Shown here: one piece after another, positions 1 to 64,000 of the stretch | Numbering within the stretch: the stretch's first letter is position 1 | Layout of the letters: each line of letters begins with the position of its first letter | Source of the DNA: Siphonodentalium dalli | Taxonomy: Eukaryota; Mollusca; Scaphopoda; Gadilida; Siphonodentaliidae | Assembly: GCA_032622095.1 (NCBI GenBank) | Contig: CP136067.1 | Location: forward strand, 51,933,899 to 51,997,898 | Reading direction: 5' to 3' | Length of the DNA stretch: 64,000 nt | Position numbers and translations under genes: made by a program | The notes under the pieces: generated by a model | Told to the model about the DNA's origin: nothing | The model's database searches: none | What the model saw: the letters and a program-made list of their open reading frames with translations, nothing else

Positions 1-483
1 TTAAAGATACGGGCGGCGTTGGCTGTGGGTATGCAGTTAAAATATTCACCTCCGTCAAAAACCGCCATGAACAGAAAGAATAGTAAAATGTAGACAGACC
101 TTGTTCTTATACCAATCAGAAATATGGCATAAACAGTATGTTATTGTCAAATGTTTTTCCTTTGTTATGTATACAAAAGCAAAAAACGTTACGGAATCTA
201 GTTTTTGTTTAAATCCGGATATGGTAAACATAAAGAGCGTTATTTATTACTGTTTATTACTATATGGAAATAATAAAGAGCGTTAATATATCATTTGTGT
301 GTGATTAACCAATAGAATTGCGCTGTGTTATGTAAACAGAAGCAAAACTTCTGTAACACAAGCAGGCTCGTGTTTATGTACACATCGTACGTTTATGTAC
401 ACCATCGTATGTCTTGACGACAATATACTATTTAAGCGCTGATTATGTTTGGCATATGAACAAAACTATATATATTTTAATAT
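1..483 (+). mobile_element. Head element of L1 (unit A), 3'-truncated TTAA MITE
   Basis: Homologous to the full element at 6311-6839 from its 5' TTAA through the tatattttaatat motif, where L1-specific sequence replaces the last about 45 bp and the 3' inverted repeat. It carries L1-specific variants (ggctgtgggtatgcag, cctccgtc). It contains a short direct duplication, gtttatgtacac(c)atcgta, near 370-412. It is the junction element between tandem units and a substrate for the exchange that made unit C. Confidence 0.8.
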
Positions 484-508
484 ATGTTAAGTTAGACTGA
501 TAAATAGT

Positions 509-621
509 ATATATGCATATATATATATGCAAGGCTCTCAATGGGAGACTCACATATATAAGAGAACGAACTGGCACATGAACTTTAATGCTGTACCAGC
601 GCAGCTCCAGTCATGAAAGGG
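509..621 (+). mobile_element. Family III MITE, 5'-truncated (unit A)
   Basis: Only the right half survives: a hairpin (gcaaggctctcaatgggaga core), then agctccagtcatgaaaggg, the inverse of the left terminus of the B copy (13747). The missing half went with the about 300-bp deletion that has its endpoint in an AT-repeat (tatatgcatatatatatat). Confidence 0.65.
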
Positions 622-719
622 ATATACAGGGTTTCCACTATGGGGTCAGGAAGTCTCATTTTGAGTAATTCACCCAAGCCATTTTTCCACCAGGCCTGTA
701 ATTATGGTGTCGGACATTT

Positions 720-812
720 GCAGAAAGGGGTCCCCAGAGGGTGATTTTAGTGACACTACCCTGAACAGTGGGCTAGCATCACCGAATTCATCATCCGGGG
801 ACCTCAATCTGC
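720..812. repeat. GCAGAATGAGGTCCCC-type hairpin, L1 copy (unit A)
   Basis: Imperfect inverted repeat of 93 bp: gcagaaaggggtccccagag at the left pairs with the ggggacctcaatctgc side at the right. It belongs to the family found twice in L2 (10209-10300, 10485-10577). A shrunken relative (aatgagg...cctcatt) sits at 974-998. No coding content. Probably a MITE family lacking obvious target duplications. Confidence 0.68.
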
Positions 813-1050
813 TATGGGAGACCTAGACACAGATTTAAGTTCCCAGATGGTGAAGATGGTGCAATGCATTGTGTTGTCTGCCAATTTGGGGATATAGAGA
901 AACTGAACTAAAAAAGAAATAGAATCAAACTAAAAAAGTAGTTAATTTGGTAATAAAGATACTTTCCAGAGATAATGAGGCCTGTGGGGGACCTCATTCT
1001 GAAAATGTCCGGCACCATATTTTCAGGCTGCCTGATCATTGTTAACTAAT

Positions 1051-1133
1051 ACAGTAATGCCCTAAGTAAAGTAATCAACAATGGGCCATAATTCTGCTGT
1101 GGTTAAGGAGTCGATTACTTAGGGCATTAGTGT
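1051..1133. repeat. Compact ACAGTAATGCCCTAA inverted-repeat element (unit A)
   Basis: Short form of the long hairpin at 11367-11560. The ends acagtaatgccctaagtaa and ttacttagggcattagtgt are inverted, with the shared ctgctgtggttaaggagtcg segment inside. A small aag duplication makes it 83 bp here against 78 bp in B. Confidence 0.68.
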
Positions 1134-1786
1134 ACATGTATGTAAGTAGAAATTACTTCAAACTAGCCAGCGGATGAAGGTCTCATGTTAGCATGTGATG
1201 GTAAATCAAGAATATTTCATGGGATAGTATCAGGCATCAACATTAATTTAAAATTATAAAATGTTATTCCCGCTTGAAATAGTAACATTTTCAGCATGAT
1301 TAGTTGGCCCACAATGTCTGTGCCATACAATTTCAACCTATTTTTCTTCAGATTCACGATGTTCAAAACACAGAATTAGGGCCGGGAATCCTTGTCTTAT
1401 TATCATATATTTTGGGATTTAAACGGATGTGACTCATTTGAACCCCAAAATTAGTATACATAATATGGTAAGAGTTATCTCAAAATATACTTACGCGGGA
1501 GATATCTGAACAATTTTTATTTATAAATTTGAGATTGTTTTGTTTGTGCCAGTCCATTTTTGTTCTATCAGTGGTCACATAAAAATTGCACCTGTAGACC
1601 ATAGGAAGAAAATCTAGACCCGTCGTCCCTCTGAAACATTTATGGTGCTACATAATTTTGGTGATAAAAACAAACAGAATGCAATTGAGTGAAATTTTAA
1701 AATAATATCCTGTTATGGTAACCCAATGAACTTTTGCCGGACAGTCAGTTTCCGAATCCAGAATTTCAATGAATACATTTAATGGC
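1134..1786. other. AT-rich intergenic stretch, no gene seen
   Basis: About 650 bp of unique-looking AT-rich DNA between two elements. ORFs are short and run into the adjacent MITE. The B equivalent lacks about 11-20 bp (ccatttttgttctatc region). Nothing functional is recognised. E and F carry copies at +38,662. Confidence 0.6.
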
Positions 1787-2192
1787 TTAACCCTTTCAGT
1801 GCCAGGTCTGATTTTTGTATCAACCCATATACCCTGTGCCAATGCATTCTCTTATATATGCGAGTCGACCATAGGTCGCCTCGCATATATAAGAGAATGC
1901 ATTGGCCTAACAATTTTTCATCATTTGTTATTATTTTTCACAATTTTTTACAATTTTAATAATTTTTTTCTTATATTCTTTAACAGACTTATGTTGTAGG
2001 TTTAGTGCCAGGGAATCTTACGTTTTTCATGGGCATCAAAATTATTACTATGAATACTTGGTGATAGTTTTGAGTTATAACATGCCCCTAAGGTTTTATC
2101 CAGTAAAATAATTAAAAAAAAAAAAAAAAAAACGATTTTACAGATCGTAAATTAGGGCCGGTGAGATCGGCCCCTGGCACTGAAAGGGTTAA
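1787..2192. mobile_element. Family I piggyBac-like MITE (unit A)
   Basis: Non-autonomous DNA element of 406 bp including both target sites. The left end TTAACCCTTTCAGTGCCAGG is perfectly inverted at the right end, finishing in GGGTTAA at 2186-2192. A TTAA target site plus CCC terminus is the piggyBac hallmark. Inside, in order: a 69-bp hairpin (1838-1906), a T-rich stretch, a poly-A run near 2113-2132, and taaaatcg-type sequence. There is no transposase, so mobilisation would have been in trans. Confidence 0.85.
1838..1906. repeat. 69-bp hairpin module inside family I MITE (unit A)
   Basis: Two 33-base arms around a 3-base ATA loop. The arms begin GCCAATGCATTCTCTTATAT and pair along their whole length except one T/C mismatch (gagtcgacc versus ggtcgcctc). 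It is preceded by CCCTGTG. The identical 69 bases occur at 11848-11916 in a MITE with different ends. Confidence 0.9.
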
Positions 2193-2832
2193 TTAAATAT
2201 TTATGTTTGGCTGAAACTTGGAATATACCACTAGATGTCTAATGACAACTGGCTACATCACAACCCTTAGAGGAAACTCTGGTATATTGTAAATAACAAT
2301 GGCAATTAGTTACATACTATTAATTAAACATTCAAATCGTTTATCACATACAACAACAACATGAACATGTCATCAATCCATCAGCTTTCAAAACCTCAGT
2401 TTAACAAAGCTCTCAAATCGCTCAAACCTTTACATGATTATCACTATTGTTAACACATTCAGACGACCATGATTCAATCATAAGTGGGGGAGACAGGCCC
2501 CTAAAAAATTGTGCATAGTTTGTTCACACGAGTATGATGTCGTCGCAGATGAAGATATTGTAGGTTCTTTGTAAGCCATGGTTAATCACGTGATTGACAA
2601 CTCTAAGATCTTTCCATCTACGATTTTTACGTATACACAACTGCGATTACGTCGCAAGTGGAGGATTTCGCATCTAAAATCAAACAGTACTTGATATTAT
2701 TTTTTTACTCGCGATCTTGTCGTGAGCATGCGCAGTCCAACTACCGGTTACTACATACGACAGAAATAATTCAACTTACGATTGAATCAGGGTCATCTGA
2801 ACGTTCACTTACAAAGGCCGAGAAGTGAGAGA
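2193..2832. other. Intergenic stretch with CpG-containing patch, no gene seen
   Basis: AT-rich to about 2500, then a patch with more CpG (tcgtcgcag, acgtcgcaag, tcgcgatcttgtcgtgagca, about 2530-2770). Nothing codes here. B, E and F carry the equivalent DNA. No promoter element is convincing. Confidence 0.5.
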
Positions 2833-3083
2833 GTAACCCTTTCATGGCGGAGCTTCGATGGTGCAGCATTAAAGATCCTGTGCCAGTGCATTCTTATATA
2901 TACATAGGGAGCCTCGCATATATAAGAGAATGCACTGGCTTAGAAGGCCAAGGTTAATATTGTTAGGCCAATGTATTCACTTATATATGCGAGGCTCCAA
3001 TGGGAGACTCAAATATATAAGAGAATGCATTGGCACAGGGTTATTCTCAAAATTTCAGGAAGCTCCAGTCATGGAATGGTTAC
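2833..3083. mobile_element. Family III MITE, degenerate, two hairpins (unit A)
   Basis: Left end GTAACCCTTTCATGGCGGAGCTTC-like (degenerate TTAA) and right end gaagctccagtcatgg...ttac, inverted with mismatches. Two hairpins lie inside at 2882-2939 and 2967-3034, both of the gccaatgcattctc type with gaggctcc...gggagac cores. Short ORFs crossing this element and its flank (to about 3400) are not credible genes. Confidence 0.68.
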
Positions 3084-3993
3084 CTTTTTCTTTACTACAT
3101 GGATTCTCTTGGCAATTATCAATGTATACATTGGAATGGTCCATTGTTCATTTGGAGGGATATTCAGGAAATATAAGCAGACGACAGACAGACAAAATGA
3201 TAATTATAAGATTTCAGAAGTATTGCTATTCATTGGAGGGAAATTTTCAAATAAAAAACTCAACAAACGACAAATGGCCTATGGCCGTATGATGAACTTA
3301 TTTTCTGAACATTTCCTGAGGGAATTTCTCATCAGTGAGTATTTAGTAGAGAAAGGGTTAAATCCAGACAGTTATTTTCAACAGGTTCCAAATTAAAGAT
3401 ATATTATGTACTTATTCAGGTGCGTGAAACTAGTAAGTTGGTATTCAGGCACTATGTCAACTGGAGGAATATAGCATTCTAGTAACATTGCCGAAAATTT
3501 CAAACAAATCGACATTACCACTCCAAAGAAAACATCGTCTGAACTACGCGCAATTGTAAATATTTACTTCTCAATTCAGGACGCAACTATCTGCGATAAG
3601 CTAACAAAAACGATTTCGCCATCGAGAGTCACTGTATTTAATTAATATATAAGAATGGCAGTGTTTGTTTTCAATTTGGATATAATATTTGTAAAAATTA
3701 CTACTTTGAGCAAGATTATTCTCCCTACCGGAGTGTTTCACACCACTTTAAAGATACAAGAATTTCACTTGAAATATTTTTCAAAGGACAAAGTAAACAA
3801 ATCAACTAACAGTTATTTTATATGATATTCCGTTGTGGAATGGCACGCTAATTCAAACAAACTCGTAATTAAACAGGTCTGGCACATTCCAAATTCAACT
3901 ATTATTGTTCAATATGGCTATTTCTATTTAACATGTTCGATAAAAGAGGCATAACCTAAAATCAGATGATACAAATATACCTGAAGAATAGTG
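3084..3993. other. AT-rich intergenic stretch, no gene seen
   Basis: About 900 bp. An ORF of 141 codons runs from 2971 to 3396 and overlaps the MITE. Between A and B it suffers frame-changing differences (caaatggcc versus caatggcc near 3271, and tgatga versus tgttga), so it is not under coding constraint. The rest shows nothing recognisable. Confidence 0.55.
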
Positions 3994-4198
3994 TTAACCC
4001 CTTTCATGACTGGAGCTTACTGAAATTTTGCGAAAACCCTGTGCCAATGCATTCTCTTATATATGTGAGTCGCCCAAAAATACATTGGCCTAACAATATT
4101 TGCCACGACCTAACAAGCCAGTACATTCTCTTATATATACGAGGCTCCCTATGGGAGACTCACATATATAGGAGAATGCAATGGCGCAGGGTATTTAA
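3994..4198 (+). mobile_element. Family III MITE, 3' terminus lost (unit A)
   Basis: Left end TTAACCCCTTTCATGACTGG at 3994, followed by CCCTGTG and two hairpin remnants: a broken one at 4043-4089 (most of the centre gone) and a good one at 4117-4185. The expected inverted terminus is absent. Sequence continues from gcagggtatttaa (TTAA at 4195-4198) into unrelated DNA. Confidence 0.65.
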
Positions 4199-4506
4199 TG
4201 TTGTGGATTGACACGCTAATTCAAACAAACTCTTTGTTTACTTTGTCTATAATCACAGTTGCTACAGTTATGCCGACAGCTATCTCCCATTGGTGAAATA
4301 CTTATAATATAATTTGATGATACTAAATATATAAGGAAGCATAAGCTGCCAAATCAGATTTAACAACATAATCCTAGTGTTATTTCATTTGCTATGTTAA
4401 AAAATAATGAGATTCTAGAAACCCTTTCAACAATGGATATTTTCTATGTCAGCTTTTAATAAGATTGTTAGGGCATGGTAAAATACGCATGTGGTAATTT
4501 CAACAA

Positions 4507-4678
4507 TGGGCCATAACTGAGGTGAAAATTGGCGAGCGGAACCAAAATTCAAACTTGACCTGTATTTTGGGCTATTAAACCCACAAATCAAATTTCAGTC
4601 CATTCAGTTAAGACTTACTAAAGTTATCATCCGGAAAAGAAAAAAAGCGAACAGACGGATGGACGGCTATACAGACCA
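4507..4678 (+). repeat. Dispersed GGCCATAACT...GGATGGACGG repeat (unit A)
   Basis: Reads gggccataactgaggtg, then gcgagcggaaccaaaattc, ending in a (g)acggatggacgg tail. From general knowledge, repeats of this look are common in mollusc genomes, and this is one of the main reasons for the taxonomic guess. No box A/B promoter was confirmed, so it is not called a SINE. Confidence 0.5.
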
Positions 4679-5917
4679 ATAACATAATGCGTTGTTTTTT
4701 TCAACACAGGAGTATATAAATAATCCAAACTGGATTTATTGGTCAAAAGCCCAAAATATTGATGGATGGACAGATTACATAATACAATGTTTATTCCAAC
4801 GGGCATATAAAGAGGGTTTTAGCCATTCTCTAAGTCACTCTGAGTCTTTCGTAATCTCATCGACTTGTCATTCGCAAAAGGCATGAGATCTTATCCCAAT
4901 TTACATCACACTGTCTTAAGTAAATCATTTAGATTGGACTATTTCATCTTAGTGTAAGTTCTGATTGGCAGTAGTTACATGGAATCCCAGGGGTCGTAAA
5001 TAGACTCTCCAAGAGAGGTAATCAGGCCCACTACTGGAATTACCTAACCATAGATGTCAATTTTCCAGATATATAGCAAATCAGATATAATGCTAAATAA
5101 ATAAATATACTGTGTTCTCTGGCACCTCTAACCACTGTAAAGAGATTACTCAAAATTGTATTTGCAGTTTTGACCCAAATTTTCAAAAAGTTCAAAACTC
5201 TTCAGATTCTATAATTTATTCACAATTAGAAATTTAGATAGGTTTCTGACATAATGAGTAAAAGGCGTTGGAGAATAGATTTTATACATTGCTTCGAAAT
5301 TTGTAGGATTTTTTACTAAAAAATTACCCATACATCCATTAATTTCTAGAATTCTTGGGGAACAACTATTAAAAATGAAAACAAATTAGCCTCCCTCCCT
5401 CATCCAGTTTCCCGTAATACTTGACTAAGAAAACAGGTCTAACATATATGTTTGCATTACCTGATAGTGATAAATATTAATCCTTTCTTTAGTCAATAAT
5501 AATTGACAAGTAATTCCCTTGTTCAGATAATAAGTTTAACAAACAGCTGAACTTATTGCAGGAACATTTCCCACCTACTAAAAGAAGTCCTTCTGTATTA
5601 TCTGTTTCTCTGTCTGTTGTCTACTTATGTTTCCTGAACACACCTTCAGATGAATAACAGACCATTCCATGTACGATATTATAACTGATGGAAGAGTCCA
5701 TTTAGTAAAGAAAAGGTTAAAGAGTATTCTAACTTAACTTTTAGGCCCAAACAAAATTATTTGAGTCTCAAAAGAAAAATAATTCTGAAGGGATGATTTT
5801 ATTTTAATTTTTAATGTTTTTTTGTGCACATCGTAAGCATGGATCATGATAGCTTCCACCATGATATCTAGTAATATTTCAGAAAATGTAGAGGGAACTT
5901 TGTTTTGCATACACATT
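4679..5917. other. AT-rich intergenic stretch, no gene seen
   Basis: About 1.2 kb without repeats that I recognise. A 64-codon ORF at 4692-4886 is broken in B by loss of atgg (gatggatggacag versus gatggacag), so it is not a conserved gene. Equivalent DNA lies in B, E and F. Confidence 0.55.
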
Positions 5918-6026
5918 CATAAGCTTTCCGATGAATGGCAAAAGCCATATTTCCGACTAAATCCTGAAAAGTTACCCATAATTCTGCTGTGTTTAAGGAG
6001 TCAATTAGTTAGGACATTACTGTAAC
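5918..6026. repeat. 3' half of the ACAGTAATGCCC inverted-repeat element (unit A)
   Basis: Matches the right half of the long hairpin at 11367-11560 (gccatatttccgactaaatc, ctgctgtg-ttaaggagtc, ending acattactgtaac). The left arm is missing. Confidence 0.65.
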
Positions 6027-6310
6027 AATTACATTGTGCTACCAGTATACCTGTATGACATAGGGATTACCAATAATGTTCTAACGCCCGTGACTATTCA
6101 CAATTGTTATTGTTGTCAATAAATTGACACCTCTCCATTATAACATGTGATCGTAAATTTCCTCCAGTGCCTTTCAATTGTTTTGGAGTTACAATTTATT
6201 TTCCAGACTATGATGATTGGCTAATCATTTTCTTCAATGAAGTCATCTACTTAATGTTCTATGTCACTATGCATATACATGATAGTCAATCTATCAATCA
6301 AAGGGATATG

Positions 6311-6839
6311 TTAAAGATACGGGCGGCGTTGGCGGTGGTTATGCTGTTAAAATATTCAGCTCTGTCAAAAACTGCCATAAACAGAAATAATAGTGAAATA
6401 TAGACAGACTTTGTTCTTATACCAATCAGAAATATGGCATAAACAGTATGTTATTGTCAAATGTTTTTCCTTTGTTATGTAAACAAAAGCAAAAAACGTT
6501 ACAGAACCTGGCTTTTTTTTTTAGATCCGGATATGGTAAACATAAAGAGCATTATTTGTTACTGTTTTCCTGATATGGAAATAATAAAGAGCGTTTATAT
6601 CATTTGTGTGTGATTAACCGATAGAATTGCACAGTGTTAAGTAAACAGAAGCAAAACTTCTGTAACACGAGCAGGCTCTTGTTTACGTACACCATCGTAC
6701 GTCTTGACAAAAATATACTATTTACGCGCTGATTATGTTTGGCATAAGAACAAAACTTTATATATTTTAATATTCCTTCTGTTGATGGCGATTTGAACAA
6801 ATATGAAATTTCTGCAACGAACGCCGCCCGTGCCTTTAA
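6311..6839 (+). mobile_element. Head element of L2 (unit A), full-length TTAA MITE
   Basis: Element of 529 bp bounded by TTAA at 6311-6314 and 6836-6839. The inverted ends match: AGATACGGGCGGCGTT at the left and AACGCCGCCCGTGCCT at the right (14 of 16 bases complementary). The inside is AT-rich with no transposase ORF, so it is non-autonomous. TTAA target sites suggest a piggyBac-like mobiliser. That is inference, since the terminal bases are not the usual CCC. Confidence 0.72.
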
Positions 6840-8620
6840 GAGTTCATGTAAGTTGCAAATAATGCTCAATACATATTATATATGGATGTTGTTTTTTCTG
6901 TCATAATATCATAAATCAAAATAAAACGTCCCATGCTGGCCTGTTATTTCAAAGCAGCGGTGTCCGAGACTCAAATAATATTTTTTATTTGGCTTTAGGC
7001 TTCTTTCCATTTTATTCCACACCCATCGATACGAGGCACATGTATTCAACGGAATACGAGCCATTGAATACATATTAGTGTATACCTCTAGTTGAGTACA
7101 TGCCGGAACTATTCTCGTTGACGTTGTCGCCAAGAAAGATGACGTACATTACGTCAACGATCCTATTCGGGTGATGCCCTGAAAATTACTGGTTATTCAT
7201 CAGTTAAATCACAATAAAGGTAGTGCTAGTATCAATGAAGGTGACAGTAATGGATTTAATTTATATGACACAACGGTCTAGAAGAAATACAGAACACGAC
7301 TTGCATCATAGTCTCGAATCTTTTATCGAACTACCGTACTGACCCGCGTTTAGGCCCAGGGGGGCCTTTGTTTTATTTGAGCTCAAAAATCCAAGTGGGC
7401 TTAAACTCGAATATGACCCTTTGCAAACCAAAAATCCCAAGAAATCGGGAGAGTAAAACTGAAGAAATGGATCCAAAAAATAAAGTCGATCCAACAGAGA
7501 TTCGGGGAAATATACACGGCTTATAGATTAAATAAAGTTAAGTATAAGTTACTTTGAGAAAGTATTTTTTTCATTTTGATGTGTATATTAAAATATTAGC
7601 AACCACAACGCGCAGGCGCGTTGTTGCTTTTCAAGTTTAGGCGTGAATGACGTCATTAATTTTTACAATACCATGAAACAGCATTTCGACGCGATGAAAA
7701 TCCGGACAAGAAACATGGGTTAAAAATCACGTGACTTCCGCTTCGCTTTCGCACAGAATCATGGGAACAATAATATCCCAAAAAGAAACGGTGACACAGA
7801 ATCGGAAGTGGACCAACGGGATTGTTATAAAATTAACAACTTTAGTTTTTCTGAACAATTCCTACGTGATTTTGGCCTATAGATTAGTTTCGTTTGACCA
7901 ATTTCGTTGGTTAGCTGAATAAAATCAGCGAAGACGTCATGACATGGTCCATGACGTCATTTGCGTCATTTGGTGTTGTGGGCTAGAATCCAGAAAAAAT
8001 TGGTCTCCGCAGGAAACACTGATTTCACATCAGTATACTAGACTTGGTTGCATTTATAACCGTTTTCGCAAAAGATATATGCGAAAATAGCACAAGCAAA
8101 CGTGCCTGCTTCAGAATCAAATTACCACAGTTGATTAGCCAAGGATGTACCCTTTCCAACAATGTATAGCACGACATCGTGTGTTGCGCCGATGTTTACT
8201 TATGGTGTTTTGTAATAACGATCCCGCCTTAGCTGCGTGTAATTTTCCTCCGTACAAATTGCTTAGCGAAAAATCCCCCTAATAGGCGGACAACATATTC
8301 AATAAGTTCCCGTCTCGCAACGATTTGGCCTCACAGACATATCAGCCGCTTATCAATTCCTTCGAGATAAATGATTGAACCAATCTACCCTAACAAGGGG
8401 GATTTTTTCACGGTTGTATGTCGCGCGAATAGTATTGGCTGGCTGCCAGGTATTCACACTCAACATCGGAACGCGGCTTATTATTTGAAATCATTTGTGA
8501 GCAGTGGTGGCAGCGGGGAAGTCAAATTATATGTCCATCATAACATGGGTCGCCTTCGTTGGAGAAGTAGGAATTAAGCCTCAACCAAATTTGTTGTCAA
8601 GTTGACGTGGGGGGCTTATA
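6840..8620. other. L2 core: least repetitive part of the unit, no gene seen
   Basis: About 1.8 kb with higher CpG than L1. Seen here: a GC-rich hairpin at 7599-7627 (gcaac...aacgcgc / gcgcgttgttgc), a ggcccaggggggcc palindrome near 7352, two perfect TGACGTCA sites (7648-7655, 7952-7959) with further acgtca half sites, and an inverted pair aaaaatcccccta / aagggggatttttt (about 8269, 8395). ORFs of 60-74 codons on both strands are unconvincing. It is present in all six units, so it is the most amplified segment. A promoter function is only a possibility. Confidence 0.5.
7648..7655. promoter_or_regulatory. CRE-like palindrome TGACGTCA
   Basis: Exact CREB/ATF-type 8-mer, with a second at 7952-7959. 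The second sits in a gacgtcatg...catgacgtc palindrome (7933-7958). No gene start is identifiable nearby, so the function is unproven. The same sites recur in every L2 copy. Confidence 0.25.
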
Positions 8621-8656
8621 TGACCTTGACCTTGACCATAAAACGACCTTGACCTC
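8621..8656. repeat. TGACCTTGACC run
   Basis: Contains tgaccttgaccttgacc and, a few bases on, cgaccttgacctc. These are tandem AGGTCA-type half-sites on the other strand, frequent in mollusc repeats. They also match nuclear-receptor half-sites, but there is no gene context to support that use. It occurs in all L2 copies. Confidence 0.55.
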
Positions 8657-8885
8657 TGTTGAAAGACATCTCACTTAAAGGGCCATTTTGCTAGATATGT
8701 GTTGCGATGTACGCGCTCATGTCAATATTCAGAGGCCTTTTATAGCTATCCTTTAGAAATATACCGGTATCGAGGCTCCTACATACGCGAGTCTGTATGT
8801 GACGAACAGAAACATGGGAGTACGATATCAATTTAAACTTGACCTCCATAAAGAATCTATTATATGTTTGAGGAAAGTTTTGGTC

Positions 8886-9600
8886 TGTGCGTGTGGGTGT
8901 GTGTGTATGTGTGTGTGTGTGTGTGTTTCCGCGATGGAATCGGAAACGGCTAACCGATTTTGACGAAACTTGCTACGGGTATGTAGTTTGACCTGTGGAC
9001 TAACATGGGTATATCCGTTTGCCCGTGCGGCGTCACCTTGACCTTCAAATGACCTTGAACTCAAGTTCTCCGCTGAGCCGATTTTCACCAAATTTGGTAT
9101 GTGTGGGTAGTTTCAGGCGCTGAGCAATTTCGTCACACCCGGATGCCCGTGCGGCGTGAACTTGAGATTTTAAATGACATTGAACTGTATCTGGGTATCC
9201 ACTGGGCCGATTTCCACCATTTTTTGGGGGTGTTGGTGTAGATGGGGATGCCAACAAATTTCGTCTCACCAACATGCCCGTCAGACAGGTACCCAGCTAA
9301 AACCTAATGTATAGTTTGTGACTTTTGTCTGTTAGCTATGGCCGGGAAAACTTCCGGACGGATTTCGACGAAACTTGATACCTAAGTGTACGTTTGTCCG
9401 GGAAGTGTTTTGGACGGGTCAAAGTGTGATGCTTGATCTTCAAAATGGTCGATTCAAGATCAAATCGGGTAATAGTGGCGGATTTCGACGATATTCGATA
9501 GCTAGGGATACTTTTGTCCGGGCAGTGTTTTGGACGGCTTAACTCGTAACCCCGACCTGACATTGACATTCAAAACGGTAAATTCAAGGTCAAATCTGGT
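8886..9600. repeat. GT microsatellite plus about five decayed 120-150-bp tandem repeats (unit A)
   Basis: A (GT)-rich run at 8886-8927 leads into repeats keyed by a (c)cgattt(t/c)(g/c)ac motif whose g sits at 8956, 9080, 9209, 9361 and 9481 (spacings 124, 129, 152, 120). Shared words include gcccgtgcggcgt (twice), ccttgacc/ttgaac, and tttgtccggg(a/c)agtgttttggacgg in the last two copies. ORFs on the reverse strand are products of the repeats. Confidence 0.75.
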
Positions 9601-9662
9601 CAAATTTCGCATAACTAGATCCGACGAAGCACCGCGTGTGGTTGCCCCGTTACGTGTCTGGC

Positions 9663-10062
9663 GGCCATGTTTTTCAACGAATTTCAGTCAAAATAGGAGG
9701 CTCCATCTAGAGGTCATCCTGAAGATCCATATGAAGATTGGTGGTGATCAGATGAGTGACGTGTTCTGTAGGGTGCACCAAAGGATATAGTCATACCATG
9801 AGTAAATTCCAATATGACCACTGGTGGCCACGTTTTTCAACAAATGGCAGTAAAAATAGGAGGCACCAATCAAGAGGTCACTCTGAAGATCCATATAATG
9901 TTTGGTGATAATCAGATGAGGGATGTGGTCTGTAGGTTGTGCCAAAGGATTTAATCATGCAAAGAGTAAAATCAAAGATGGCTGCCGGCATCCATGTTTT
10001 TCATCGATAATTGTTCAAATTTGATAGCTCCCATCTAGAGGTGATTCATGGAGACTTTTACC
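9663..10062. repeat. Three tandem copies of a 163-bp repeat (unit A)
   Basis: Copies start at ccatgttttt 9665, ccacgttttt 9828 and ccatgttttt 9992 (spacing 163 and 164). The third copy is truncated near 10062. Shared words: tttttcaacgaat, ataggagg(c), gaggtca(t/c), gatgagtgacgtg/gatgagggatgtg, gcaccaaaggat. Confidence 0.78.
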
Positions 10063-10208
10063 TTTATCTTTCATTCGCTTACCAGGAATGTGGTACTGCT
10101 ACACCAGCTAACCCCATTTTACAACAATCTTCACCATATCTTATTTTGGATTATGCCCCTTTCATGTATTTCAAATAGACAAGCCTGCAAATAGTGTGTC
10201 TGTCATTT

Positions 10209-10577
10209 GCAGAATGAGGTCCCCAGATGGTGAATTCAGAGACGCTATCCTGGAAGGTGGGCTAGCATCACAAAATTCACCCTCTGAGAACTCAATCTGC
10301 AATGGGACACCTAGGATCAGATTGAATTTCCCCCAGTTGAAGTTGGTGATGTTCACCCATTAGTCAACTCGATTATGGATTTTATCTTCTGCAAATTAGA
10401 GGATACAGAAACTTCCCAGAAGGGTAAAAGTTACTAAAAAACAATCTTAATTTGAGATTATATACTTCCCAGAAGATGAGGCTAGCAGAATGAGGTACAC
10501 AGAGGGTGAATTTGGTGATGCTAGTCCACTCTGAAGGATAGCATCACTAAATTCACCCTCTGGGGACCTCATTCTGC
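10209..10577. repeat. Two GCAGAATGAGGTCCCC hairpins (unit A)
   Basis: First hairpin 10209-10300, second 10485-10577. In the second, gcagaatgaggtacacagag... pairs with ...ctctggggacctcattctgc over about 39 bases per arm. The two share their arms and are separated by 184 bp containing acttcccagaag twice. The same family occurs in L1 at 720-812. Confidence 0.8.
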
Positions 10578-10808
10578 ATATGATCTCCTGTGTTATTCAT
10601 CCGTTTGTACTGAAATTTTGAACAAATTGAGAACATGGTAAATGCGGAACATTGTGGAAGTTAATTACCCCCATGGTTTTCTAACCTTCTTGTGAATGTT
10701 GCTTGATTGAAAATATTACCATTTTTAAAAACCACACATTCAACTTTGACGCTCAACAACGTCGCAGGTTGATGGGTTAACTGGGAGATCAGTGTTTGCT
10801 AAGTGCCC
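10578..10808. other. Short AT-rich spacer, nothing recognised
   Basis: 231 bp between two hairpin families. No ORF or repeat signal beyond homopolymer differences between A and B (tttttaaaaacc versus ttttaaaaaacc). Confidence 0.5.
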
Positions 10809-10950
10809 GATCCACTGCATTCACTCGAAAGGATCTCTGCCCCGTAAGGTGGACCAAGAAAGAAGTACCGCCTTCAATAAATCTATGGTGGTACCTCTTT
10901 CTTGGTCCATCATATGGGGCAGGGATCCTTTCGAGTGAATGCAGTGGATC
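10809..10950. repeat. 142-bp hairpin, arms of about 64 bases (unit A)
   Basis: Left arm starts gatccactgcattcactcga and the right arm ends with its exact inverse. The arms pair, with few mismatches, through ggtggaccaagaaaga / tctttcttggtccatc to a loop of about 14 bases (ttcaataaatctat). Transcribed in either direction it would form a long stem. Confidence 0.88.
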
Positions 10951-52659: not shown

Positions 52660-52757
52660 ATATACAGGGTTTCCACTATGGGGTCAGGAAGTCTCATTTT
52701 GAGTAATTCACCCAAGCCAATTTTCCACCAGGCCTGTAATTATGGTGTCGGACATTT

Positions 52758-52850
52758 GCAGAAAGAGGTCCCCAGAGGGTGATTTTAGTGACACTACCCT
52801 GAACAGTGGGCTAGCATCACCGAATTCATCATCCGGGGACCTCAATCTGC
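52758..52850. repeat. GCAGAATGAGGTCCCC-type hairpin, L1 copy (unit F)
   Basis: Copy of 14096-14188. Confidence 0.66.
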
Positions 52851-53089
52851 TATGGGAGACCTAGACACAGATTTAAGTTCCCAGATGGTGAAGATGGTGC
52901 AATGCATTGTGTTGTCTGCCAATTTGGGGATATAGAGAAACTGAACTAAAAAAGAAATAGAATCAAACTAAAAAAGTAGTTAATTTGGTAATAAAGATAC
53001 TTTCCAGAGATAATGAGGCCTGTGGAGGGACCTCATTCTGAAAATGTCCGGCACCATATTTTCAGGCTGCCTGATCATTGTTAACTAAT

Positions 53090-53167
53090 ACAGTAATGCC
53101 CTAAGTAATCAACAATGGGCCATAATTCTGCTGTGGTTAAGGAGTCGATTACTTAGGGCATTAGTGT
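53090..53167. repeat. Compact ACAGTAATGCCCTAA inverted-repeat element (unit F)
   Basis: Copy of 14428-14505. Confidence 0.66.
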
Positions 53168-53805
53168 ACATGTATGTAAGTAGAAATTACTTCAAACTAG
53201 CCAGCGGATGAATGTCTGATGTTAGCATGTGATGGTAAATCAAGAATATTTCATGGGATAGTATCAGGCATCAACATTAATTTAAAATTATAAAATGTTA
53301 TCCCCGCTTGAAATAGTAACATTTTCAGCATGATTAGTTGGCCCACAATGTCTGTGCCATACAATTTCAACCTATTTTTTTTCAGATTCACGATGTTCAA
53401 AACACATAATTAGGGCCGGGAATCCTTGTCTTATTATCATATATTTTGGGATTTAAACGGATGTGACTCATTTGAACCCCAAAATTAGTATACATAATAT
53501 GGTAAGAGTTATCTCAAAATATACTTACGCGGGAGATATCTGAACAATTTTTTTTTTATAAATTTGAGATTGTTTTGTTTGTGCCAGTCAGTGGTCACAC
53601 AAAAATTGCACCTGTAGACCATAGGAAGAAAATCTAGACCCGTCGTCCCTCTGAAACATTTATGGTGCTACATAATTTTGGTGATAAAAACAAACAGAAT
53701 GCAATGAGTGAAATTTTAAAATAATTTCCTGTTAAGGTAACCCAATGAACTTTTGCCGGACAGTCAGTTTCCGAATCCAGAATTTCAATGAATACATTTA
53801 ATGGC

Positions 53806-54209
53806 TTAACCCTTTCAGTGCCAGGTCCGATTTTTGTATCAACCCATATACCCTGTGCCAATGCATTCTCTTATATATGCGAGTAGACCATAGGTCGCCT
53901 CGCATATATAAGAGAATGCATTGGCCTAACAATTTTTCATCATTTGTTATTATTTTTCACAATTTTTTACAATTTTAATAATTTTTTTCTTATATTCTTT
54001 AACAGACTTATGTTGTAGGTTAAGTGCCAGGGAATCTTACGTTTTTCATGGGCATCAAAATTATTACTATGAATACTTGGTGATAGTTTTGAGTTATAAC
54101 ATGCCCCTAAGGTTTTATCCAGTAAAATTAAAAAAAATTAAAAAAAAGAAGATTTTACAGACCGTAAATTAGGGCCGGTGAGATCGGCCCCTGGCACTGA
54201 AAGGGTTAA
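53806..54209. mobile_element. Family I piggyBac-like MITE (unit F)
   Basis: Copy of 15144-15547. Confidence 0.83.
53857..53925. repeat. 69-bp hairpin module (unit F, family I MITE)
   Basis: Copy of 15195-15263. Confidence 0.88.
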
Positions 54210-54849
54210 CTAAATATTTATGTTTGGCTGAAACTTGGAATATACCACTAGATGTCTAATGACAACTGGCTACATCACAACCCTTAGAGGAAACTCTGGT
54301 ATATTGTAAATAACAATGGCAATTAGTTACATACTATTAATTAAACATTCAAATCGTTTATCACATACAACAACAACATGAACATGTCATCAATCCATCA
54401 GCTTTCAAAACCTCAGTTTAACAAAGCTCTCAAATCGCTCAAACCTTTACATGATTATCACTATTGTTAACACATTCAGATGACCATGATTCAATCATAA
54501 GTGGAGGAGACAGGCCCCTAAAAAATTGTGCATAGTTTGTTCACACGAGTATGATGTCGTCGCAGATGAAGATATTGTAGGTTCTTCGTAAGCCATGGTT
54601 AATCACGTGATTGACAACTCTAAGATCTTTCCATCTACGATTTTTACGTATACACAACTGCGATTACGTCGCAAGTGGAGGATTTCGCATCTAAAATCAA
54701 ACAGTACTTGATATTATTTTTTTACTCGCGATCTTGTCGTGAGCATGCGCAGTCCAACTACCGGTTACTACATACGACAGAAATAATTCAACTTACGATT
54801 GAATCAGGGTCATCTGAACGTTCACTTACAAATGCCGAGCAGTGAGAGA

Positions 54850-55077
54850 GTAACCCTTTCATGGCGGAGCTTCGATGGTGCAGCATTAAAGATATACATA
54901 GGGAGCCTCGCATATATAAGAGAATGCACTGGCTTAGAAGGGCAAGGTTAATATTGTTAGGCCAATGTATTCACTTATATATGCGAGGCTCCAATGGGAG
55001 ACTCAAATATATAAGAGAATGCATTGGCACAGGGTTATTCTCAAAATTTCAGGAAGCTCCAGTCATGGAATGGTTAC
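54850..55077. mobile_element. Family III MITE, hairpin arm deleted (unit F)
   Basis: Copy of 16188-16415. Confidence 0.66.
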
Positions 55078-55986
55078 CTTTTTATTTACTACATGGATTC
55101 TCTTGGCAATTATCAATGTATACATTGGAATGGTCCATTATTCATTTGGAGGGATATTCAGGAAATATAAGCAGACGACAGACAGACAAAATGATAATTA
55201 TAAGATTTCAGAAGTATTGCTATTCATTGGAGGGAAATTTTCAAATAAAAAACTCAACAAACGACAATGGCCTATGGCCGTATGTTGAACTTATTTTCTG
55301 AACATTTCCTGAGGGAATTTCTTATCAGTGAGTATTTAGTAGAGAAAGGGTTAAATCCAGACAGTTATTTTCAACAGGTTCCAAATTAAAGATATATTAT
55401 GTACTTATTCAGGTGCGTGAAACTAGTAAGTTGGTATTCAGGCACTATGCCAACTGGAGGAATATAGCATTCTAGTAACATTGCCGAAAATTTCAAACAA
55501 ATCGACATTACCACTCCAAAGAAAACATCGTCTGAACTACGCGCAATTGTAAATATTTACTTCTCAATTCAGGACGCAACTATCTGCGATAAGCTAACAA
55601 AAACGATTTCGCCATCGAGAGTCACTGTATTTAATTAATATATAAGAATGGCAGTGTTTGTTTTCAATTTGGATATAATATTTGTAAAAATTACTACTTT
55701 GAGCAAGATTATTCTCCCTACCGGAGTGTTTCACACCACTTTAAAATTACAAGAATTTCACTTGAAATATTTTTCAAAGGACAAAGTAAACAAATCAACT
55801 AACAGTTATTTTATATGATATTCCGTTGTGGAATGGCACGCTAATTCAAACAAACTCGTAATTAAACAGGTCTGGCACATTCCAAATTCAACTATTATTG
55901 TTCAATATGGCTATTTCTATTTAACATGTTCGATAAAAGAGGCATAACCTAAAATCAGATGATACAAATATACCTGAAGAATAGTG

Positions 55987-56191
55987 TTAACCCCTTTCAT
56001 GACTGGAGCTTACTGAAATTTTGCGAAAACCCTGTGCCAATGCATTCTCTTATATATGTGAGTCGCCCAAAAATACATTGGCCTAACAATATTTGCCACG
56101 ACCTAACAAGCCAGTACATTCTCTTATATATACGAGGCTCCCTATGGGAGACTCACATATATAGGAGAATGCAATGGCACAGGATATTTAA
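55987..56191 (+). mobile_element. Family III MITE, 3' terminus lost (unit F)
   Basis: Copy of 17325-17529. Confidence 0.64.
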
Positions 56192-56499
56192 TGTTGTGGA
56201 TTGACACGCTAATTCAAACAAACTCTTTGTTTACTTTGTCTATAATCACAGTTGCTACAGTTATGCCGACAGCTATCTCCCATTGGTGAAATACTTATAA
56301 TATAATTTGATGATACTAAATATATAAGGAAGCATAAGCTGCCAAATCAGATTTAACAACATAATCCTAGTGTTATTTCATTTGCTATGTTAAAAAATAA
56401 TGAGATTCTAGAAACCCTTTCAACAATGGATATTTTCTATGTCAGCTTTTAATAAGATTGTTAGGGCATGGTAAAATACGCATGTGGTAATTTCAACAA

Positions 56500-56671
56500 T
56501 GGGCCATAACTGAGGTGAAAATTGGCGAGCGGAACCAAAATTCAAACTTGACCTGTATTTTGGGCTATTAAACCCACAAATCAAATTTCAGTCCATTCAG
56601 TTAAGACTTACTAAAGTTATCATCCAGAAAAGAAAAAAAGCGAACAGACGGATGGACGGCTATACAGACCA
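56500..56671 (+). repeat. Dispersed GGCCATAACT...GGATGGACGG repeat (unit F)
   Basis: Copy of 17838-18009. Confidence 0.48.
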
Positions 56672-57907
56672 ATAACATAATGCATTGTTTTTTTCAACAC
56701 AGGAGTATATAAATAATCCAAACTGGATTTATTGGTCAAAAGCCCAAAATATTGATGGACAGATTACATAATACAATGTTTATTCCAACGGGCATATAAA
56801 GAGGGTTTTACCCATTCTCTAAGTCACTCTGAGTCTTTCGTAATCTCATCGACTTGTCATTCGCAAAAGGCATGAGATCTTATCCCAATTTACATCACAC
56901 TGTCTTAAGTAAATCATTTAGATTGAACTATTTCATCTTAGTGTAAGTTCTGATTGGCTGTAGTTACATGGAATCCCAGGGGTCGTAAATAGACTCTCCA
57001 AGAGAGGTAATCAGGCCCACTACTGGAATTACCTAACCATAGATGTCAATTTTCCAGATATATAGCAAATCAGATATAATGCTAAATAAATAAATATACT
57101 GTGTTCTCTGGCACCTCTCTAACCACTGTAAAGAGATTACTCAAAATTGTATTTGCAGTTTTGACCCAAATTTTCAAAAAGTTTAAAACTCTTCAGATTC
57201 TATAATTTATTCACAATAAGAAATTTAGATAGGTTTCTGACATGAGTAAAAGGCGTTGGAGAATAGATTTTATACATTGCTTCGAAATTTGTAGGATTTT
57301 TTACTAAAAAATTACCCATACATCCATTAATTTCTAGAATTCTTGGGGAACAACTATTAAAAATGAAAACAAATTAGCCTCCCTCCCTCATCCAGTTTCC
57401 CGTAATACTTGACTAAGAAAACAGGTCTAACATATATGTTTGCATTACCTGATAGTGATAAATATTAATCCTTTCTTTAGTCAATAATAATTGACAAGTA
57501 ATTCCCTTGTTCAGATAATAAGTTTAACAAACAGCTGAACTTATTGCAGGAACATTTCCCACCTACTAATAGAAGTCCTTCTGTATTATCTGTTTCTCTG
57601 TCTGTTGTCTACTTATGTTTCCTGAACACACCTTCGGATGAATAACAGACCATTCCATGTACGATATTATAACTGATGGAAGAGTCCATTTAGTAAAGAA
57701 AAGGTTGAAGAGTATTCTAACTTAAATTTTAGGCCCAAAAAACATTATTTGAGTCTCAAAAGAAGAAAAAAATTCTGAAGGGATGACTTTATTTTAATTT
57801 TTTATGTTTTTTTGTGCACATCGTAAGCATGGATCATGATAGCTTCCACCATGATATCTAGTAATATTTCAGAAAATGTAGAGGGAACTTTGTTTTGCAT
57901 ACACACT

Positions 57908-58017
57908 CATAAGCTTTCCGATGAATGGCAACAAGCCATATTTCCGACTAAATCCTGAAAAGTTACCCATAATTCTGCTGTGTTTAAGGAGTCAATTAGT
58001 TAGGACATTACTGTAAC
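57908..58017. repeat. 3' half of the ACAGTAATGCCC inverted-repeat element (unit F)
   Basis: Copy of 19246-19355. Confidence 0.63.
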
Positions 58018-58301
58018 AATTACATTGTGCTACCAGTATACCTGTATGACATAGGGATTACCAATAATGTTCTAACGCCCGTGACTATTCACAATTGTTA
58101 TTGTTGTCAATAAATTGACACCTCTCCATTATAACATGTGATCGTAAATTTCCTCCAGTGCCTTTCAATTGTTTTGGAGTTACAATTTATTTTCCAGACT
58201 ATGATGATTGGCTAATCATTTTCTTCAATGAAGTCATCTACTTAATGTTCTATGTCACTATGCATATACATGATAGTCAATCTATCAATCAAAGGGATAT
58301 G

Positions 58302-58829
58302 TTAAAGATACGGGCGGCGTTGGCGGTGGTTATGCTGTTAAAATATTCAGCTCTGTCAAAAACTGCCATAAACAGAAATAATAGTGAAATATAGACAGAC
58401 TTTGTTCTTATACCAATCAGAAATATGGCATAAACAGTATGTTATTGTCAAATGTTTTTCCTTTGTTATGTAAACAAAAGCAAAAAACGTTACAGAACCT
58501 GGCTTTTTTTTTTAGATCCGGATATGGTAAACATAAAGAGCATTATTTGTTACTGTTTTCCTGATATGGAAATAATAAAGAGCGTTTATATCATTTGTGT
58601 GTGATTAACCGATAGAATTGCACAGTGTTAAGTAAACAGAAGCAAAACTTCTGTAACACGAGCAGGCTCTTGTTTACGTACACCATCGTACGTCTTGACA
58701 AAAATATACTATTTACGCTCTGATTATGTTTGGCATAGAACAAAACTTTATATATTTTAATATTCCTTCTGTTGATGGCGATTTGAACAAATATGAAATT
58801 TCTGCAACGAACGCCGCCCGTGCCTTTAA
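58302..58829 (+). mobile_element. Head element of L2 (unit F), full-length
   Basis: Copy of 19640-20167, B-type variants. Confidence 0.72.
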
Positions 58830-60875
58830 GAGTTCATGTAAGTTGCAAATAATGCTCAATACATATTATATATGGATGTTGTTTTTTCTGTCATAATATC
58901 ATAAATCAAAATAAAACGTCCCATGCTGGCCTGTTATTTCAAAGCAGCGGTGTCCGAGACTCAAATAATATTTTTTATTTGGCTTTAGGCTTCTTTCCAT
59001 TTTATTCCACACCCATCGATACGAGGCACATGTATTCAACGGAATACGAGCCATTGAATACATATTAGTGTATACCTCTAGTTGAGTACATGCCGGAACT
59101 ATTCTCGTTGACGTTGTCGCCAAGAAAGATGACGTACATTACGTCAACGATCCTATTCGGGTGATGCCCTGAAAATTACTGGTTATTCATCAGTTAAATC
59201 ACAATAAAGGTAGTGCTAGTATCAATGAAGGTGACAGTAATGGATTTAATTTATATGACACAACGGTCAAGAAGAAATACAGAACACGACTTGCATCATA
59301 GTCTCGAATCTTTTATCGAACTACCGTACTGACCCGCGTTTAGGCCCAGGGGGGCCTTTGTTTTATTTGAGCTCAAAAATCCAAGTGGGCTTAAACTCGA
59401 ATATGACCCTTTGCAAACCAAAAATCCCAAGAAATCGGGAGAGTAAAACTGAAGAAATGGATCCAAAAAATAAAGTCGATCCAACAGAGATTCGGGGAAA
59501 TATACACGGCTTATAGATTAAATAAAGTTAAGTATAAGTTACTTTGAGAAAGTATTTTTTTCATTTTGATGTGTATATTAAAATATTAGCAACCACAACG
59601 CGCAGGCGCGTTGTTGCTTTTCAAGTTTAGGCGTGAATGACGTCATTAATTTTTACAATACCATGAAACAGCATTTCGACGCGATGAAAATCCGGACAAG
59701 AAACATGGGTTAAAAATCACGTGACTTCCGCTTCGCTTTCGCACAGAATCATGGGAACAATAATATCCCAAAAAGAAACGGTGACACAGAATCGGAAGTG
59801 GACCAACGGGATTGTTATAAAATTAACAACTTTAGTTTTTCTGAACAATTCCTACGTGATTTTGGCCTATAGATTAGTTTCGTTTGACCAATTTCGTTGG
59901 TTAGCTGAATAAAATCAGCGAAGACGTCATGACATGGTCCATGACGTCATTTGCGTCATTTGGTGTTGTGGGCTAGAATCCAGAAAAAATTGGTCTCCGC
60001 AGGAAACACTGATTTCACATCAGTATACTAGACTTGGTTGCATTTATAACCGTTTTCGCAAAAGATATATGCGAAAATAGCACAAGCAAACGTGCCTGCT
60101 TCAGAATCAAATTACCACAGTTGATTAGCCAAGGATGTACCCTTTCCAACAATGTATAGCACGACATCGTGTGTTGCGCCGATGTTTACTTATGGTGTTT
60201 TGTAATAACGATCCCGCCTTAGCTGCGTGTAATTTTCCTCCGTACAAATTGCTTAGCGAAAAATCCCCCTAATAGGCGGACAACATATTCAATAAGTTCC
60301 CGTCTCGCAACGATTTGGCCTCACAGACATATCAGCCGCTTATCAATTCCTTCGAGATAAATGATTGAACCAATCTACCCTAACAAGGGGGATTTTTTCA
60401 CGGTTGTATGTCGCGCGAATAGTATTGGCTGGCTGCCAGGTATTCACACTCAACATCGGAACGCGGCTTATTATTTGAAATCATTTGTGAGCAGTGGTGG
60501 CAGCGGGGAAGTCAAATTATATGTCCATCATAACATGGGTCGCCTTCGTTGGAGAAGTAGGAATTAAGCCTCAACCAAATTTGTTGTCAAGTTGACGTGG
60601 GGGGCTTATATGACCTTGACCTTGACCATAAAACGACCTTGACCTCTGTTGAAAGACATCTCACTTAAAGGGCCATTTTGCTAGATATGTGTTGCGATGT
60701 ACGCGCTCATGTCAATATTCAGAGGCCTTTTATAGCTATCCTTTAGAAATATACCGGTATCGAGGCTCCTACATACGCGAGTCTGTATGTGACGAACAGA
60801 AACATGGGAGTACGATATCAATTTAAACTTGACCTCCATAAAGAATCTATTATATGTTTGAGGAAAGTTTTGGTC

Positions 60876-62052
60876 TGTGCGTGTGGGTGTGTGTGTATGT
60901 GTGTGTGTGTGTGTGTTTCCGCGATGGAATCGGAAACGGCTAACCGATTTTGACGAAACTTGCTACGGGTATGTAGTTTGACCTGTGGACTAACATGGGT
61001 ATATCCGTTTGCCCGTGCGGCGTCACCTTGACCTTCAAATGACCTTGAACTCAAGTTCTCCGCTGAGCCGATTTTCACCAAATTTGGTATGTGTGGGTAG
61101 TTTCAGGCGCTGAGCAATTTCGTCACACCCGGATGCCCGTGCGGCGTGAACTTGAGATTTTAAATGACATTGAACTGTATCTGGGTATCCACTGGGCCGA
61201 TTTCCACCATTTTTTGGGGGTGTTGGTGTAGATGGGGATGCCAACAAATTTCGTCTCACCAACATGCCCGTCAGACAGGTACCCAGCTAAAACCTAATGT
61301 ATAGTTTGTGACTTTTGTCTGTTAGCTATGGCCGGGAAAACTTCCGGACGGATTTCGACGAAACTTGATACCTAAGTGTACGTTTGTCCGGGAAGTGTTT
61401 TGGACGGGTCAAAGTGTGATGCTTGATCTTCAAAATGGTCGATTCAAGATCAAATCGGGTAATAGTGGCGGATTTCGACGATATTCGATAGCTAGGGATA
61501 CTTTTGTCCGGGCAGTGTTTTGGACGGCTTAACTCGTAACCCCGACCTGACATTGACATTCAAAACGGTAAATTCAAGGTCAAATCTGGTCAAATTTCGC
61601 ATAACTAGATCCGACGAAGCACCGCGTGTGGTTGCCCCGTTACGTGTCTGGCGGCCATGTTTTTCAACGAATTTCAGTCAAAATAGGAGGCTCCATCTAG
61701 AGGTCATCCTGAAGATCCATATGAAGATTGGTGGTGATCAGATGAGTGACGTGTTCTGTAGGGTGCACCAAAGGATATAGTCATACCATGAGTAAATTCC
61801 AATATGACCACTGGTGGCCACGTTTTTCAACAAATGGCAGTAAAAATAGGAGGCACCAATCAAGAGGTCACTCTGAAGATCCATATAATGTTTGGTGATA
61901 ATCAGATGAGGGATGTGGTCTGTAGGTTGTGCCAAAGGATTTAATCATGCAAAGAGTAAAATCAAAGATGGCTGCCGGCATCCATGTTTTTCATCGATAA
62001 TTGTTCAAATTTGATAGCTCCCATCTAGAGGTGATTCATGGAGACTTTTACC
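60876..62052. repeat. Minisatellite block (unit F)
   Basis: Copy of 22214-23390. Confidence 0.73.
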
Positions 62053-62198
62053 TTTATCTTTCATTCGCTTACCAGGAATGTGGTACTGCTACACCAGCTA
62101 ACCCCATTTTACAACAATCTTCACCATATCTTATTTTGGATTATGCCCCTTTCATGTATTTCAAATAGACAAGCCTGCAAATAGTGTGTCTGTCATTT

Positions 62199-63549
62199 GC
62201 AGAATGAGGTCCCCAGATGGTGAATTCAGAGACGCTATCCTGGAAGGTGGGCTAGCATCACAAAATTCACCCTCTGAGAACTCAATCTGCAATGGGACAC
62301 CTAGGATCAGATTGAATTTCCCCCAGTTGAAGTTGGTGATGTTCACCCATTAGTCAACTCGATTATGGATTTTATCTTCTGCAAATTAGAGGATACAGAA
62401 ACTTCCCAGAAGGGTAAAAGTTACTAAAAACAATCTTAATTTGAGATTATATACTTCCCAGAAGATGAGGCTAGCAGAATGAGGTACACAGAGGGTGAAT
62501 TTGGTGATGCTAGTCCACTCTGAAGGATAGCATCACTAAATTCACCCTCTGGGGACCTCATTCTGCATATGATCTCCTGTGTTATTCATCCGTTTGTACT
62601 GAAATTTTGAACAAATTGAGAACATGGTAAATGCGGAACATTGTGGAAGTTAATTACCCCCATGGTTTTCTAACCTTCTTGTGAATGTTGCTTGATTGAA
62701 AATATTACCATTTTAAAAAACCACACATTCAACTTTGACGCTCAACAACGTCGCAGGTTGATGGGTTAACTGGGAGATCAGTGTTTGCTAAGTGCCCGAT
62801 CCACTGCATTCACTCGAAAGGATCTCTGCCCCGTAAGGTGGACCAAGAAAGAAGTACCGCCTTCAATAAATCTATGGTGGTACCTCTTTCTTGGTCCATC
62901 ATATGGGGCAGGGATCCTTTCGAGTGAATGCAGTGGATCAGACATGGGAGTGGTTCAAAATCATGCCCCTTTGTTCCAAAGCAGGTGTCTTGAATGATGG
63001 ATGTTTCACCAAATGTGATAAGAAAACTCTACCATATTTCAAGAAACAGTACTGGCTATGGGAAAGATCGCTTCACATAGCCAGTTTCTTGAAAATGAGT
63101 TTTCTTATCCCATTCGGTGAACAAAGCCATTGTATAAGACTTTCCTTACAGAGGGAGGTGTTTGGCTCCAACAGATCTAAGGCTTGGTTTGCCATACAGG
63201 GCATGATTCCATTATCTAGAGTGAAAACAGAGGACCAGATATGGAGGTGGTTCAAAATAATGCCCCAAAATTCCCACAACGTGACAACTGGTGAATTTGA
63301 AGAAAATCCTAAGCAGTAATGAAGCCAGTGACACTTAACCAACACTGATTAACCAGTTACAGTAATGCCCTAAATAATTGACTCCATAACCACAGAAGAA
63401 TTATGGCTCATTTTTCAGGATTTAGTCGGAAATATGGCTTGAGAGCTTTCCAATGAATGGCAACAAGCCATATTTCCGACTAAATCCTGAGAAATTACTT
63501 ATAATTCTGCTGTGGTTAAGGAGTCGATTAGTTTGGGCATTACTGTAAC
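62199..63549. repeat. Hairpin block (unit F)
   Basis: GCAGAATGAGGTCCCC hairpins 62199-62290 and 62474-62566, 142-bp hairpin 62798-62939, 117-bp hairpin 63005-63121, 194-bp MITE 63356-63549. B-type variants. Confidence 0.8.
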
Positions 63550-64000
63550 CAATCAACTCGTGATTCTGTTGAGCATCAAAGTTGATTTTTGAAAATGGCA
63601 AATTTTCCAATCAAACAACATTCAGGATAGAAAACCCTCGGAATAATTAACATCGACAATGTGCTGCATTTATCACGCTCTTAATTCGTTCAAAATATCG
63701 ATACGATCAGGTGAATAACACACGCAGGGTATTACATGAGAGGTGCATAACTCCATCAGAAATGGTTGGACCAGACCCAAGTTCCATCTTCACCTGTATC
63801 TTCGTGTGATTAAAGGTACTCAATCGGAGTCAATCCTATTCGATGGTCCCCATATCATCAGATTCCAACAACAACATTTTTTTAATGCTGCTTCAGTTAT
63901 CAGAATCGATTAATTTCCAAAAAATAATGCTAACCAGTCAACTATAGTATAAAATTGCCCAGAACGTGTTATTTATCAACATTTTGTTTAACGAATTTGG

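Follow-up and report, generated by a model that had tools for sequence, protein, structure and literature searches.

Of the systems compared, the human LTR arrays come closest to the array described here; they form a megasatellite of MaLR retrotransposon fragments in which six monomers of ~3.5 kb make up one higher-order unit, and their authors explain the loss of monomers by unequal crossing over (PMC2588610). Those arrays resemble the present one in having large transposon-derived monomers, six per higher-order unit; they differ in that they are composed of LTR retrotransposon pieces in a unit of ~21 kb, whereas the present array has sub-units of 6–7 kb with MITE-like pieces in a unit of ~39 kb, in which one exchange point is placeable to within 71 bp. 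DXZ4, a human macrosatellite, has a 3-kb unit (PMC2588610; see also PMC3018141 and PMC3218863). Macrosatellites of the DXZ4 kind share with the present array the kilobase tandem units, and DXZ4 itself is not obviously protein-coding. Human macrosatellites such as DXZ4 have one unit type, whereas the present array alternates two unit types in a longer pattern.

Among invertebrates, the satellites of the Pacific oyster have been linked to mobile elements, the longest monomer being 3,287 bp (PMC8268682); the present array, some motifs of which may be bivalve-like, would share with these animal satellites the link to mobile elements, its units measuring 6.3 to 13 kb. MITE-derived satellites include BIV160 of bivalves and the oyster HindIII satellite, and unequal crossing over between transposon copies is an established idea for the first step of satellite formation, as stated in the same source (PMC6947457). 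Participation of MITE-type elements in tandem repeat formation is common to these satellites and the present array. MITE-derived satellites repeat the element itself or its internal part, whereas the elements found here bracket 6-kb units and would act as recombination homology. We consider, with a probability of roughly two in three, that the present array is a macrosatellite without recognizable genes, built by unequal exchange between MITE-like elements and then enlarged by block copying; the size of its units is unusually large, and the mechanism is of a known kind.

Periodicity and order of the units

Self-comparison by BLAST of the window, that is, the whole 64-kb stretch of DNA analyzed, revealed an exact period of 38,662 bp, with 25,338 bases aligned ungapped and a single mismatch (G at 10077, A at 48739) as the sole difference between the blocks; the window covers 1.66 periods, and the super-period is thus seen to recur once, incompletely. 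At the control offsets of 38,662 ± 1, as many as 17,829 of 25,339 and 17,828 of 25,337 positions mismatched, and hence the period does not arise by chance. The first-pass annotation had placed unit starts at 1, 13080, 25981, 32322, 38663, and 51742, all of which are correct, and the return it had described after 38,662 bp is borne out by the unit lengths (13,079 + 12,901 + 6,341 + 6,341). Its A-B-C-D order agrees with these starts but is too coarse, because the block consists of six sub-units and A and B are both composite. The order revealed by self-comparison is L1-S1-L2-S2-S3-S4, followed by L1 again, with A = L1 + S1, B = L2 + S2, C = S3, and D = S4; the tail of B (19640–25980) is an S unit of 6,341 bp in its own right, which brings the run of consecutive S units from two to three (Table 1).

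Table 1. Positions of sub-units, elements, and other features in the 64-kb window
Feature	Position	Strand	Remarks
L1 (L half of A), 6,310 bp, 35% GC	1..6310	+	Recurs at 38663-44972
S1 (S half of A), 6,769 bp	6311..13079	+	Recurs at 44973-51741
L2 (L half of B), 6,560 bp	13080..19639	+	Recurs at 51742-58301
S2 (S half of B), 6,341 bp	19640..25980	+	Second copy starts at 58302
S3 (unit C), 6,341 bp	25981..32321	+	11 differences from S2, all within unit positions 24-100
S4 (unit D), 6,341 bp	32322..38662	+	1 mismatch with S3, at unit position 2681
Second block, partial (L1, S1, L2, and 5,699 bp of S2)	38663..64000	+	1 mismatch with the first block
Near-identical A/B tract (unit A coordinates)	5916..11164		3 mismatches in 5,245 columns, vs 1.08% outside
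Element alpha in L1	1..483		Right part with terminal repeat missing; also heads L2 (13080)
Element beta in S1, ~529 bp including both TTAA	6311..6839		Also heads S2 (19640)
Hybrid alpha/beta element in S3 (stretch aligning with alpha)	25981..26442		Also in S4, from 32322
TTAACCC...GGGTTAA element in L1	1787..2192		Nested palindromic element inside
TTAACCC...GGGTTAA element in S1	11818..12217		Inner palindrome at 11841-12071
Palindromic family members	11841-12071; 2834-3082; 13769-14000; 17326-17534
164-bp tandem pair	9658-9970		Copies at 22986, 29327, 35668, 48320, 61648

Divergence among the sub-units

The L and S sub-units have a common start of ~480 bp and otherwise share little beyond short dispersed elements. 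Across 12,593 aligned columns, 82 differences (0.65%) separate units A and B; L1 and L2 differ at 62 of 6,255, and the tails of S1 and S2 differ by about 1%, like L1 and L2, although several of the S1/S2 and L1/L2 mismatches adjoin indels (e.g., 513–516 and 12251–12255) and may be alignment effects. Pairwise comparison of S2, S3, and S4 gives 1 to 12 differences per 6,341 bp. Two larger differences set the copies apart: ~428 bp from ~11820 are specific to S1 and absent from S2–S4, and ~298 bp from ~13597 are specific to L2 and absent from L1. The latter looks like a loss in L1, because, read by eye, L2 contains the left end, and L1 still the right end, of the same element. Within A and B, the near-identical tract gave a log-likelihood gain of 32.3, whereas none of 200 random placements of the mismatches exceeded 10.5; this points to a recent event of exchange or conversion involving both units over 5916–11164.

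Such near-identity bears on the reliability of the assembly. The blocks differ by one base in 25,338 and S2–S4 by zero to one over 6.2 kb after position 100, and reads shorter than ~20–40 kb, a length estimated from the units, would find almost no anchor; it could therefore be that the L-S and S units are real while the exact 38,662-bp return and the S count of three are false, produced by a repeat graph that was walked twice or collapsed. We regard an artefact of this partial kind as unlikely, though a chance to be reckoned with, in view of the fact that the blocks are not letter-identical (10077/48739), a single difference that polishing could nevertheless create, and that long reads of ordinary length should suffice to resolve such local differences as the hybrid start of S3 and S4 (see below), the insertion in S1, and the indels between L1 and L2. 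Whatever the copy number, the hybrid and the types of sub-unit should thus be safe, whereas the copy number and the block order could be assembly errors.

MITE-like elements in the units

The ~480-bp start common to L and S is a copy of a small MITE-like element with inverted repeats and TTAA flanks, present as two variants that run in the same direction and are ~88% identical: alpha, heading the L sub-units, and beta, heading S1 and S2. The layout of beta is TTAA, inverted terminal repeats (AGATACGGGCGGCGTT / AGGCACGGGCGGCGTT), and TTAA. The Kolobok superfamily is characterized by a TTAA site and RR ends, and T2 elements by AGGRR ends (PMC6004289). TTAA occurs at both ends of beta, as in the target site of a Kolobok or T2-type MITE, and the element ends AGATAC and AGGCAC agree with RR, but not with AGGRR. 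Alpha stops short of the right end at an identical place in L1 and L2 (483–520 in L1), and this truncation point could mark where the original 13-kb tandem duplication was joined.

Besides alpha and beta, the units contain elements with the piggyBac-like ends TTAACCC...GGGTTAA, among them one in L1 and one in S1. At the site matching the S1 element, S2 has one TTAA followed by different bases; a clean TTAA insertion of the S1 element was set aside because S1 and S2 do not agree to the right of this site. Variants of the core ATGCATTCTCTTATATATGCGAG mark a palindromic family whose members lie in L and the S1 insertion, some of them being nested in TTAACCC...GGGTTAA elements. The units are a real patchwork of inverted-repeat elements, as had been proposed from the first inspection of the sequence.

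A hybrid element at the head of S3 and S4

To distinguish the two variants, 61 diagnostic columns were used in which the alphas agree with each other, the betas agree with each other, and alpha and beta differ, a 19-base gap being counted as 19 columns. Both S3 and S4 have the alpha state at 10 of 10 columns in positions 24–100 and the beta state at 51 of 51 columns in positions 172–465; the exchange point consequently lies within the intervening 71 bp. To the left, S3 and S4 adjoin the end of an S unit, as do L2 and the L1 copy at 38663, and S1 and S2 adjoin the end of an L unit (the first L1 opens the window and has no left flank in view).

The sources of the two parts of the hybrid may be read from individual sites. 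L1 and L2 have a single difference in their initial 150 bp, at position 69, where S3 and S4 have the L1 base and L2, S1, and S2 have the other; the L1 base is probably the derived one, given that L2 and both betas carry the alternative. At the sites of substitution between S1 and S2, S3 has the S2 base in 20 of 20 cases, and after position 100 there is no difference between S2 and S3 in 6,241 bp. The S3/S4 hybrid would accordingly join an L1-type alpha, a part read from one site, to an S2-type body. Units C and D are, as judged from these sequence comparisons, S2 copies behind a recombinant element rather than independent monomers, and the short units are most simply explained as extra S2 copies arising from unequal exchange between two elements. 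Two simpler origins for S3 were rejected: deletion of L inside a present-day A unit would leave the S1 body (20 sites), and deletion of L inside a present-day B unit would leave the alpha of L2 (one site). Deletion of L1-S1-L2 between two S2 units gives the same junction as duplication by crossover, and a hybrid would likewise result if the first 100 bp had been converted or if replication had switched templates.

Predicted history of the array

We propose that a 13-kb L + S unit was initially present in tandem and that its copies A and B, for which the divergence is observed, then drifted ~1% apart. In the next predicted step, the alpha of an L1 located to the right of S2 would have undergone unequal exchange with the beta heading S2, thereby duplicating S2 and leaving the hybrid at the head of S3. 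A further misaligned exchange may have produced S4, after which the enlarged block L1-S1-L2-S2-S3-S4 was presumably copied whole. Conversion or double exchange, as the putative cause of the near-identical tract, would keep A and B alike over ~5.2 kb.

The predicted order follows the ranking of divergence, by which the L-S tandem would predate both the S duplications and the block copy, which would be young. The mismatch counts are too small to order the S duplications relative to the block copy, but the pattern of the block requires that the S copies precede the block copy. The same ranking bears on a reversed scheme, in which S is the original tandem monomer, L was inserted later beside it, and the hybrid is due to later conversion. 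That three S units stand in a row and that, apart from the element and short dispersed pieces, L and S have little in common would be in agreement with such a scheme, yet S3 and S4 are nearly identical to S2 while L1/L2 and the S1/S2 tails differ by ~1%, so that the pure S stretch looks younger; we hold this reversed order to be highly improbable.

If the order of the units is correct, the array provides a clear case of a satellite gaining a longer period, in which the unit-adding step left behind a hybrid transposon-like element with an exchange point confined to 71 bp, and it puts the model by which satellites grow through unequal crossover to the test on units of kilobase size; the pattern is also one that is easily got wrong by short-range assembly.

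Comparison with higher-order repeats and macrosatellites

In the higher-order repeats of alpha satellite and NBPF, monomers differ by ~18–40% and repeat copies by less than ~5%, according to PMC9584774. The present array shows the second feature, since whole-unit copies are far more alike than monomers (the blocks differ at 1 of 25,338 positions, A and B by 0.65%), even though S3 and S4 of one block, with 1 difference in 6,341, match each other about as closely as the blocks do. Strong divergence among the monomers is not seen, in that A and B differ by 0.65% and S2–S4 by 1 to 12 in 6,341, and L and S are unalike outside the ~480 bp and short elements. The description as a higher-order repeat is therefore to be qualified, the array not being of the classical diverged-monomer type. 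Macrosatellites are defined as tandem units of more than ~500 bp, possibly composite, in one source (PMC12692304), the limit being set at 100 bp in another (PMC13130569), and the units found here are 6.3–13 kb long and arranged head to tail. Since the units are too alike by the divergence criterion, the array is, as far as sequence comparison goes, a composite macrosatellite with a super-period and not a classical higher-order repeat. The earlier remark that units of such length are found in few satellites is fair, yet the published higher-order repeat with transposon-derived monomers of ~3.5 kb (PMC2588610) qualifies it.

Among the matches listed in the literature search, which comprised titles and the beginnings of abstracts, neither this array nor a similar MITE-bracketed one was found, which does not prove its absence; the combination of unit size, MITE brackets, and a mapped exchange point was likewise not found in the literature so sampled. 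It is conceivable, if doubtful, that the array represents a class of macrosatellites in which same-direction MITE copies bracket kilobase cassettes as recurrent exchange points. Were there such a class, the order of the cassettes would change by crossover between MITEs, and new orders would spread as blocks of tens of kilobases.

Coding content and similarity to other sequences

A six-frame Pfam scan with stops read as X, which covered unit A alone, found no family reaching its cut-off, including no transposase family and no replication gene. The six frames together gave a single match, to DUF1496, which at E 0.66 and 10 bits fell short of the cut-off of 20.2, and coding content of unit A was rejected on this basis. 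Neither Rfam RNAs nor tRNAs were detected across the whole window (0 each). Stop-to-stop frames within the first 38,662 bp reach at most 151 codons, compared with a mean maximum of 151.5 in 40 random sequences generated by a first-order Markov model, and 8 frames of at least 100 codons were observed against a random mean of 10.3. The initial view that the repeat is all non-coding is thereby supported within the limits of the Pfam scan of unit A, the Rfam and tRNA searches, and the random-like frame lengths. The proposed explanation calls for no host function.

These searches also bear on whether the window represents not a chromosomal array but an unrolled 38,662-bp circle, such as extrachromosomal circular DNA or a rolling-circle product, for which an exact return and near-identical copies would look alike. 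We consider this improbable, and more so than an assembly artefact: unit A contains no replication gene by the Pfam scan, no similar sequence was found among plasmids for 1–8000 (8,000 of 64,000 bases queried) or among phages for 6300–14200 (7,901 of 64,000), and the graded divergence of the inner tandem copies (A/B 0.65%, S2/S3/S4 nearly none) points to a chromosomal array, although a circle excised from such an array would be compatible with that gradation.

At the level of short patterns, the 25-base element pattern had no exact match in the collection of genome contigs searched, nor had three others (30, 18, and 19 bases) in the viral contigs searched. A 16-base pattern matched 82 stretches in prokaryote contigs; because comparison of all 82 with the first 38,662 bp by BLAST gave nothing at E 1e-3 (best E 0.037), these matches are taken as chance. 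The dinucleotide make-up of the window DNA is 0.78 for CpG and 1.18 for TG, and, with the MITE-like content, points to a probable eukaryotic source. Finally, each of the six S units in view carries a 164-bp tandem pair (1.9 copies, 82% matching), near which further decayed two-copy repeats are found.
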